Shown here one piece after another: positions 10,980-13,094 of a DNA stretch of 64,000 bases. The stretch's first letter is position 1; each line of letters starts with the position of its first letter. The stretch is from positions 1-64,000 of the forward strand of contig WTGH01000059.1 in assembly GCA_011523655.1 (NCBI GenBank). The letters run 5' to 3'. The notes under the pieces are model-generated. The model was not told the DNA's origin. It made no database searches and worked only from the letters and a program-made list of their open reading frames with translations. Made by a program: the position numbers and the translations under genes. This DNA comes from Rhodospirillaceae bacterium. GTDB lineage: Bacteria > Pseudomonadota > Alphaproteobacteria > Bin65.

Positions 10980-11079
10980 GACCTGTCTTGCTGCCGTGTC
11001 GCGGGTCGCCGGTTCTTAGCCCGGACCTCTGACCGTTGTCACGGGCCGACATGCGGCAATAGCGTGCCGGGCCGGACCC

Positions 11080-11107
11080 TTGCGCCGGTACGGCCGCGCC
11101 GTATATT
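11080..11107 (+). promoter_or_regulatory. Candidate promoter for the rpsF operon
   Basis: TTGCGC at 11080-11085 and TATATT at 11102-11107, separated by 16 bases, resemble housekeeping -35 and -10 boxes. Transcription would begin near 11114, leaving a leader of about 210 bases before the rpsF start. This is a pattern match only. Confidence 0.45.
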
Positions 11108-11196
11108 CCGCGCTTGCCATATCTCCTTGCCGGGGTGAGGGCGCGTCGTTCCGAGACTCCGGCTAGACCTGTGCGGCTGGTCTCTTTTGCACGGCG

Positions 11197-11269
11197 CCGG
11201 CCCGCTCCCCCGCCCGGCCACCCATTCAAGGATAATCCCGTTGGGTGGCCGGGCGGGGGAGCGGGCCGG
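11197..11269. repeat. Perfect 28-bp inverted repeat in the rpsF leader
   Basis: Bases 11197-11224 are the exact reverse complement of 11242-11269, separated by a 17-base loop (11225-11241). The arms are almost entirely G+C. In RNA this would be a 28-bp perfect hairpin within the rpsF leader, about 55 bases before the start codon. No U-run follows the second arm, so it is not a classical terminator on either strand. It could be a ribosomal-protein autoregulatory element, a processing site or a dispersed palindrome. The family-known S6:S18 leader motif was not recognised here. Confidence 0.85.
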
Positions 11270-11325
11270 AACCGCAAATCAAATACCAGCGGCAGGTCGC
11301 GAAACAGCCGTAAGGAGGGTTTGTT

Positions 11326-12174
11326 TTGCCGTATTACGAATGCGTGTATCTCGCGCGCCAGGACATTGCCGCCAGCCAGGTCGATGCCCTGAGCGACGAC
11401 TTCGCCGAAACGATCGCCGAGGGCGGCGGCGAGGTGAAGAAGCGGGAATACTGGGGCCTCCGCAATCTCGCCTACCGGGTCAAGAAGAACCGCAAGGCGC
11501 ATTATGTGCTGATGAATATCGATGCGCCGGCATCCGCGGTGCACGAGATGCAGCGCCTGATGCGGCTCAACGCCGACGTGCTGCGCGAACTTACCCTGCG
11601 GGTCGACGAGCTGAACGAGGGGCCGTCGATCATGATGCAGCGGCGCGAGGAACGGCGCGACCGCGGCGAGCGGCGCAGCCGGCGCGACGAGGAGCGTCGG
11701 GCGGAGCGGGCGGCCGCCGCAGAGAAGCAGGCTGGCGACAAGGCGCCCGCCGAAGACGCGCCTGCGAAAAAGCCGGCCGAAGAAAAGCCAGCCGAAGAAG
11801 CGCCAGTCGAAGAGGCCGTCGAAAAAGCCGCCGAAAAAGCCGCCGAAAAAGCCACCGAAAAAGCCACCGAAAAAGCCACCGGGAAACCGGCCGAAGACTC
11901 CGCAGGGGAAACGGCTGAAGCGGCGCCTGCCGAGGCCGCCGCCGAAGAAGCGCCGGTCGAGGAGGCTGCCGCCGAAGCTGCCGAGGAAACCGTGGAAGAG
12001 GGTTTGAAACCCTCCCCTGCAGAAGCCGGGAATGCCGCTGAAGAAGCGTCCGCCGAAGAAGCGGCAGAAGCCGAAGAGGCCGCGGAGCCCGAAAAATCCG
12101 TCGCTGGGGATTCTGCCGAAGACGCTGAAGACGCCGCCGAAAAGACCGCCGAAAGCAAAGGGGGAGACGCCTGA
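11326..12174 (+). CDS. rpsF: 30S ribosomal protein S6 with long acidic tail
   Basis: The first ~95 residues are a normal S6: [11 protein letters not shown], then [30 protein letters not shown] and [11 protein letters not shown]. After a basic stretch ([20 protein letters not shown]) follows a low-complexity tail of about 150 residues rich in Ala, Glu and Lys, making 282 residues against the usual 95-150. The tail contains tandem 12-base repeats encoding EKAA or EKAT five times (around 11820-11880). The start codon is TTG at 11326, preceded by AAGGAGGG; no in-frame ATG exists near it. Its stop overlaps the rpsR ATG by one base. S6 binds the 30S platform with S18. Confidence 0.95.
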
Positions 12175-12401
12175 TGGCCCGCCGCCCGTTTTTCCGCCGC
12201 CGCAAGAGCTGCCCCTTCTCCGGCCCTAACGCGCCGAAGATCGATCATATGGACGTCAAGCTGCTGCAGCGCTTCATGTCGGAGCGCGGCAAGATCGTGC
12301 CGAGCCGCATTACCGCGGTGTCGGCCAAGAAGCAGCGCGAACTGTCCCGGGCGATCAAGCGCGCGCGCTTCCTGGCCCTGATCCCCTACGTTTCGGGCTA
12401 G
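12174..12401 (+). CDS. rpsR: 30S ribosomal protein S18
   Basis: Basic 75-residue protein with the family pattern: [15 protein letters not shown] at the N-terminus, then [53 protein letters not shown]. It pairs with S6 on the 30S platform. The ATG overlaps the rpsF stop (TGATG), indicating translational coupling, and rplI begins 13 bases downstream. Confidence 0.97.
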
Positions 12402-12413
12402 GAGGGCCGCGCC

Positions 12414-13094
12414 ATGGACGTGATCCTGCTCGAGCGGATCGAGAAGCTCGGCCAGATGGGCGATATCGTCTCCGTCAAGCCCGGCTTTGCCCGCAACTAC
12501 CTGCTGCCGCAGCGCAAGGCGCTGCGCGCGACCGACGACAATGTCGCCCGGTTCGAGGCGCGCAAGGCGCAGCTCGAAGCGGACAACCTGACCCGCAAGG
12601 CCGAAGCCGAATCGGTCGTCGATAAGATGGAGGGTGCGGCCGTCACGGCAATCCGCAACGCCGGCGAGGCGGGCCAGCTCTACGGCTCGGTCAGCGCGCG
12701 CGACATCGCCGATGGCCTCACCGAAGCCGGCTACACGGTCGACAAGCGCCAGGTCGTCATCGAGCATCCGATCAAGATGCTCGGCGTGTTCCCGATCCGC
12801 GTCGTGCTGCATCCGGAGGTGTCGGTCACCGTCACGGTCAACGTCGCGCGCTCGCCGGAGGAAGCGCAGATGCAGGCCGAACGCGCCGCCCGCGGCGAAG
12901 ACCCGGTGGTGCTCGGCCGGGCCGAAGGCGACGAGGATACGCTCAACGACGAAGTCGCCATTGCCATGATGGACCGCGAGGAGCGCCGCGCCGCCCGCGA
13001 AGCCGCCAAGGCCGCGGAGGCCGAGGCAGAGGCTGCCGCCGAAGCCGCCCGCCGGGCGATGCTCGACCCGGTCGAGGGCGAACAGCCGGGCTGA
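12414..13094 (+). CDS. rplI: 50S ribosomal protein L9 with C-terminal extension
   Basis: Residues 1-50 are the L9 N-domain ([24 protein letters not shown], then [11 protein letters not shown]), joined by the long charged helix to a C-domain with [16 protein letters not shown] and [14 protein letters not shown]. That accounts for about 150 residues. A further 60-75 residues rich in Ala, Glu and Arg extend the protein to 226, longer than the usual 148-190. L9 spans from the L1 stalk base and affects reading-frame maintenance. It is the last gene of rpsF-rpsR-rplI and is followed by repeat-containing non-coding DNA. Confidence 0.95.

Follow-up and report, generated by a model that had tools for sequence, protein, structure and literature searches.

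We have analyzed a long perfect hairpin that lies immediately before the ribosomal protein S6 gene, rpsF, in a 64-kb stretch of DNA (the window). Comparison with other genomes supports placing this hairpin in a dispersed family of palindromic, MITE-like repeats and makes an attenuator specific to rpsF less likely, because similar palindromes are found in 27 genomes outside the genus, often dozens in each, elsewhere in the genome. The reading that we consider probable is that a dispersed palindrome of this kind has been inherited within the rpsF leader, at the tip of its helix P2, and that its core inverts in place by template switching. A dispersed palindromic element is an ordinary kind of thing, found here in an unusual place, and two features are worth following: the inversion of the core in place, and the leader that carries the element, which has no database entry.

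An inverted-repeat scan of the window places the left arm at 11197-11224 and the right arm at 11242-11269, each of 28 bp and fully complementary to the other, with a 17-nt spacer between them (11225-11241; TTCAAGGATAATCCCGT, referred to as orientation A); all three are given on the + strand. This agrees exactly with the preliminary description, which had reported a perfect 28-bp hairpin before rpsF at 11197-11269, and the identity of rpsF is borne out by its match to Pfam S6. The runner-up perfect stems in the window are only 13 bp long. A chance origin was rejected, since about 7e-10 perfect 28-bp arms with a spacer of 3 to 60 nt would be expected in a sequence of 65.4% GC. Folded as RNA, the hairpin region reaches -84.9 kcal/mol (z = -11.0), and none of 200 shuffled sequences did equally well. 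In this fold the stem extends outward imperfectly, UUUGC..GG pairing with CC..GCAAA, and the whole palindromic element, perfect arms plus outer arms (TTTGC..GG / CC..GCAAA), reaches from 11186 to 11278. The outer arms of the window copy are imperfect only, terminal inverted repeats proper being a feature of other genera; its outer CCGCAAA is similar to the outer ends of dispersed copies. The hairpin ends 56 nt 5' of the TTG start of rpsF and has a divergent fabD-like gene on its other side. Neither a terminator scan nor the sequence itself showed a T-run or U-run terminator at the hairpin, as had been remarked before, and an intrinsic terminator was rejected for the window hairpin because the T-run is missing.

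The three ORFs that follow the hairpin match the Pfam families of S6, S18 and L9. They are rpsF (11326-12174; PF01250), rpsR (12174-12401; PF01084) and rplI (12414-13094; PF01281 and PF03948), all on the + strand, with fabD-like and fabG-like genes divergent upstream. The start codon of rpsF is the TTG at 11326, and its Shine-Dalgarno sequence, AAGGAG, is at 11312-11317. Promoter-like boxes on the + strand, CTTGCG (11079-11084) and, after 17 nt, TATATT (11102-11107), were read by eye at 11079-11107; a strict consensus scan gave zero matches there, and a TATANT-like box is present at the same place in many relatives. If these boxes are genuine, transcription would begin shortly before the leader, and the hairpin would then be transcribed. 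The S6 protein of the window ends in a long low-complexity tail of about 180 residues (11600-12174), A/E/K-rich and C-terminal to the S6 domain (residues 4-92), and the length of this tail varies among congeners.

The congener set consists of seven whole genomes, with that of the window as G000, and one contig, L125, eight in all. Absence from all relatives had been named in advance as a refuting outcome; the hairpin is present at the same site in 6 of the 8 congeners, namely the window, G002 (L004), G003 (L126), G004 (L123), G005 (L122) and L125. G001 has a remnant at this site, CCGGCC-TTGG-GGCCGG, apparently the product of an internal deletion, and in G006 the hairpin is entirely missing from the rpsF leader. 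Among 80 rpsF loci that were fetched, none of the 74 outside the genus has it. Contig L125 (JAJDVQ010000044.1) is filed in an Acidimicrobiia bin, yet it encodes an S6 93% identical to that of the window and has the same leader and palindrome; it probably belongs to this genus and was mis-binned.

A BLAST search with the hairpin found no second copy in the genome of the window, and scans with the spacer and with a 19-base arm pattern found none in any of the seven congener genomes. Both patterns have matches elsewhere at 2-3 mismatches, for the arm in numbers close to those of reversed-pattern controls, and a like hairpin was seen at none of the inspected 2-3-mismatch loci among the matches listed. 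The preliminary description had regarded many identical copies across the genome as the mark of a mobile repeat; the genome of the window holds one copy, and it is other genomes that hold many. Since the copies are dispersed elsewhere but single here, a test for copies in its own genome would have been misleading.

The arms are fully paired in G000, G002 and G003, have one mismatched pair in G004 and in L125, and are decaying in G005, where 6 of 28 pairs are mismatched. When orientation is allowed for, congener pairs mostly differ at 2-6 of the 73 positions, and at up to 15 when the decaying G005 copy is included, whereas the third codon positions of the genes adjoining the hairpin are 77-94% identical among congener pairs. 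The window and G003 are identical over all 73 bp, yet their third codon positions (compared over the first 100 codons of rpsF, rpsR and part of rplI) are only 82% identical; at that rate the probability of 73 unchanged sites is about 6e-7, with sites treated as independent. Inheritance alone, in the absence of constraint, does not account for this identity; it could be due to constraint, to recent transfer, or to replacement by a copy from somewhere other than these genomes. The outer flanks of the two elements differ although the elements themselves are identical.

The spacer of the hairpin occurs in both orientations among the congeners. It reads TTCAAGGATAATCCCGT in G000 and G003, with a variant in L125, and is the reverse complement of this in G002 and G004 and, with changes, in G005. 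The clearest case is that of the window and G002, which are sisters with 90% identity in downstream DNA and genes: their 73-bp cores differ at 19 of 73 positions as read, and at 2 of 73 once one of them is inverted, the two residual differences being a single paired change from G-C to T-A. At least two changes of orientation are needed on the congener tree, the deep forks of which are only moderately supported, and the orientation data all come from assemblies, mostly metagenomic bins. A reverse-complemented spacer between arms that are still paired, the hallmark of hairpin inversion, was thus seen in the congeners, and it was seen in other genomes as well. Template-switch mutations have been described in RNA genes as making and maintaining hairpins, and the cases include inverted loops of bacterial rRNA (PMC8794818). 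The inversion of the core and the paired arm changes observed here fit template-switch replication as their likely mechanism.

A search of 385 genomes of the class with the 73-bp query gave matches at E<=1e-3 in 30, of which 3 belong to this genus and 27 lie outside it; 20 of 276 genera are represented. In a sample of the phylum, taken without a breakdown by class, 10 of 398 genomes match, all of them Alphaproteobacteria. Among plasmids, 3 of 72,556 records match and all are from sphingomonads (Sphingomonas, Novosphingobium and Sphingopyxis); none of 50,697 phage records matches the query. In 12 matching genomes of our choosing the copies are numerous, often dozens per genome, and located at unrelated places; the complete 4.29-Mb genome G205 has at least 37. 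Among the earlier suggestions, which also included an RNase III site and an attenuator of S6/S18/L9, that of a mobile palindrome landed in the leader is accordingly the one borne out, as regards dispersal at unrelated places in other alphaproteobacterial genomes, and not as regards the genome of the window, where the element is single-copy. In the G205 contig (4,291,441 bases), 33 of 37 places fall by eye at 1.0-2.6 Mb, among the matches listed, and are thus strongly clustered.

Eighty regions were fetched from six of the 12 genomes and yielded 86 distinct copies, 37 of them from G205. Across the 86 there is very little variation in the inner arm, CTCCCCCNCCCGGCCACCC, and where it does vary both arms mostly change together; core position 8, for example, is A/A in 31 copies, T/T in 39, G/G in 8, and unpaired or other in 8. 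A perfect 19-bp inner arm is present in 46 of the 86, and the arms of these 46 measure 23-38 bp. Conservation of the stem with changing bases in relatives had been proposed as a check, and the congeners show it, with paired changes that would have read as support for a regulatory stem. The dispersed copies show paired changes too, and therefore such changes do not prove a function specific to rpsF. Spacers vary widely among the dispersed copies, unlike the common 17-nt spacer of the congeners. The repeat unit is sharply delimited, with a length of about 131 bp and CTAGATCGTTCCA-like ends in G205's genus and of about 146-151 bp and AGAGACCGTTTGAGA-like ends in G038; the terminal inverted repeats seen in these other genera are CTAGATCGTTCCA ... 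TGGAACGATCTAG and AGAGACCGTTTGAGA ... TCTCAAACGGTCTCT, respectively.

By a home-made GC3 ORF heuristic rather than a gene caller, the 86 copies lie between convergent genes in 25 cases, tandem genes in 36 and divergent genes in 9, with 12 inside ORFs and 4 unclear. The distance from a copy to the neighbouring 3' end has a median of 47 nt and a minimum of 21, and plasmid copies H1 and H3 lie about 35 and 24 nt past stop codons. Comparison with 27 G297 copies, by eye from a BLAST table, showed that at least 5 of the 37 G205 copies have both flanks in common with one of them. At one site compared by eye, L227 against G297 and G091, synteny is lost at the element, and neither a clean empty site nor a target duplication was seen. 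A scan with the unit end patterns gave scattered ends and no partner insertion sequence among the matches listed. In the open-licence literature no description of the repeat family was found by arm sequence or by words, and as far as that literature goes the family appears to be undescribed.

Orientation was also examined in G205's genus, by alignment scores under strict limits that kept 15 of 67 copies with clearly recognisable ends. Relative to the asymmetric outer ends, the spacer lies one way in 9 of these 15 and the other way in 6. The presence of both orientations would be the pattern left by template switching within the palindrome. At two sites common to G205 and G297 the orientation is the same in both (L292/L272 and L298/L286), and at a third (L300/L284) the spacers differ. 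At a fourth (L304/L287), one species has two copies in opposite orientation adjoining an assembly gap. At the fifth (L242/L289), the spacer together with some 60 bp of flanking DNA to its left and right appears to be inverted, as if nested inverted repeats also flip at a larger scale.

The leader that carries the palindrome has a recurring sequence at alphaproteobacterial rpsF loci, CUCCUUGCCGG ... CCGGCUAG ... AACAGCC-AAGGAG. In an alignment of 37 leaders chosen from the 80 loci, in which the window leader is 11123-11317, three helices were defined, all on the + strand. The 5' strand of P0, CUCCUU (11123-11128), is complementary to the Shine-Dalgarno sequence at 11312-11317, which forms its 3' strand; P1 is a hairpin, GCCGG ... 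CCGGC (11129-11163); and P2 pairs a 5' strand (GACCUG, GCUGGU; 11166-11181) with a 3' strand (ACCAGC, CAGGUC; 11285-11298), the palindrome sitting between the two. The three helices comprise 21 pairs, 13 of which have changes on both sides; paired cells make up 91.6%, as compared with 83.5% in shuffled alignments. The covariation score is 0.287 against 0.163 in shuffles, at most 1 of 500 shuffles was as high on any measure, and the pairing far exceeds that of slid controls. The P0 pairing is partly built into the choice of seeds, since complementarity to the Shine-Dalgarno sequence counted in the score of the parsing script; P0 shows paired changes from U-A to C-G at two positions, in 6 sequences at one and 3 at the other. 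Paired changes occur at 6 of the 7 pairs of the P2 base. P2 is the weaker helix, with 84% and 79% of cells paired in its two parts, in columns that were selected by pairing rate, and RNAalifold alone recovers P0 and P1 and not P2.

The conserved parts of the leader (P0 with the Shine-Dalgarno sequence, P1 and the base of P2) are intact in the window by sequence and folding despite the palindrome, which is therefore tolerated there. With the insert, P0 is still possible at 2.4 kcal/mol above the MFE; in G006, G007 and G009 the MFE fold already includes it. The pairing of P0 with the Shine-Dalgarno sequence suggests translational control of rpsF. In E. coli the translation of rpsF is reported to be inhibited by S6:S18 (PMC4647458). 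Like the S6:S18 leaders described in PMC4647458 and PMC7247131, the present leader is a conserved, structured and covarying rpsF 5' UTR that includes the Shine-Dalgarno sequence; unlike those described in PMC7247131, it belongs to Alphaproteobacteria and has no Rfam match. The same survey remarked that an S6:S18 leader is conspicuously absent from Alphaproteobacteria and mentioned promising motifs that its authors had seen and left unpublished. The conserved leader is a candidate for the leader reported missing. Rfam searches at permissive thresholds gave no rpsF-type match for the window stretch or for the loci of 12 relatives. The hits were of miRNA or IRES type only and far below the gathering score, and a known Rfam family was rejected for hairpin and leader on that ground; such profiles may well be drawn by a long hairpin.

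In the reading that we prefer, the hairpin goes back to a MITE-like palindromic repeat, non-coding and dispersed among Alphaproteobacteria, a copy of which would have entered the variable tip of leader helix P2 in an ancestor of the genus and then been inherited, tolerated because the conserved parts of the leader stay intact. Once resident, the palindrome may extrude as a DNA hairpin at replication; template switching between the arms would keep them complementary, and the spacer would occasionally be copied backwards, with an inverted core as the result. An internal deletion would have left CCGGCC-TTGG-GGCCGG in one species, and in another the arms appear to be decaying. Against this reading count the lack of any other copy in the same genome that could have been the donor, the lack of a clean empty site or target duplication at the site compared, the failure of a Y1_Tnp search to link a transposase to the repeat, the identity of the window and G003 elements, and the derivation of all orientation data from assemblies. 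The first of these is also an obstacle to repeated independent insertion at one favoured site, in either orientation and without inversion in place, as no second copy that could be a source was found in the congener genomes. Such insertion would suit the identical elements of the window and G003 with their different outer flanks, as well as an orientation that does not track the tree. It would leave unexplained why all the congeners share one 17-nt spacer, altered at a few positions at most, when spacers elsewhere are diverse, and insertion alone does not invert the core inside otherwise similar outer ends, as is seen in G205's genus; we give it a slim chance. That the whole pattern is an assembly artefact, an inverted chimaera, is scarcely credible: chimaeric reads can yield perfect inverted repeats, but this element is shorter than ordinary reads and is the same in six contigs (window, L004, L122, L123, L125 and L126) from several genome records, and the artefact was rejected.

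The near-identity of the congener copies (73 identical bp in the window and G003, and 2-6 differences in 73 in most pairs, against 77-94% identity at third positions), their paired arm changes and, should the promoter-like boxes be genuine, the location within the transcribed leader would all suit a hairpin that has been recruited for the regulation or processing of the rpsF-rpsR-rplI message, either as an RNase III site or as a rigid rod stabilising the S6:S18 leader, with its sequence under selection. We nevertheless think recruitment rather unlikely, as two congeners (the G001 remnant and G006) and all 74 leaders outside the genus do without the hairpin, the arms of G005 are decaying, and dispersed copies equally show paired changes and nearly identical arms. 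A more elaborate version, in which a freely flipping palindrome has been domesticated as the tip of the S6:S18 leader, its sequence selected and its flip providing two alternative RNA loops as a slow switch of ribosomal-protein expression, strikes us as very unlikely. It is also doubtful, in our estimate, that the family is a bidirectional terminator or a REP-like 3'-end stabiliser that is spread by recombination and is not mobile as such, its presence in a 5' leader being accidental. The preference of the copies for 3' ends and the position of plasmid copies H1 and H3 after stop codons speak for it; however, avoidance of genes is expected of any intergenic mobile element, the window copy has no U-run, and sharp common ends over 131-151 bp together with sequence identity across families point to a replicating unit.

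The family can be compared with several known systems. Like the prokaryotic MITEs and small repeats (Correia/NEMIS, RUP and ERIC; PMC10969869, PMC2229807), it consists of non-coding and mostly intergenic units of about 100-150 bp, with long-stem transcripts and with terminal inverted repeats in two of the genera examined; unlike them, it has perfect inner arms of 23-38 bp, a GC-rich sequence nearly fixed across many families and an invertible core, and neither a target duplication nor a parent IS was seen. The CIR elements of Caulobacter and Brucella, as described in PMC2229807, are likewise intergenic palindromes of about 110 bp conserved among alphaproteobacteria, but they carry GANTC at the hairpin loop. 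GANTC is found in the core and spacer of none of the 86 copies and nowhere at 11160-11300 in the window, and CIR membership was rejected because the core lacks it. REP sequences with their RAYT transposases are also extragenic palindromes of many copies, and differ in being 20-40 bp long and tagged with GTAG/CGTC (PMC3733652). Membership in REP/RAYT was rejected since, in seven copy-rich genomes and that of the window, Y1_Tnp (PF01797) exceeded the cut-off in only 1 of 8, and not in the window's own. With the template-switch hairpins of PMC8794818 the element shares loop inversion, paired arm changes and arms kept perfect, but those are mostly short rRNA loops, and minute hairpin inversions are a feature of plastid genomes, whereas here the 73-bp unit belongs to a dispersed bacterial repeat. 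Its many countable copies offer a naturally occurring system in which inversion by template switching, and the repair of arms, can be read on a phylogeny for long palindromes of bacterial chromosomes. At the rpsF locus, it has led to a conserved, covarying leader in the very class from which the S6:S18 leader was missing according to a published survey, and it indicates that an rpsF leader of this kind tolerates a 28-bp rod at its tip. In G334 and G038 (L247, L249, L254, L257 and L259), a second, smaller palindrome, GAGAATGGGCC..GGCCCATTCTC, lies beside the long one in the same unit.
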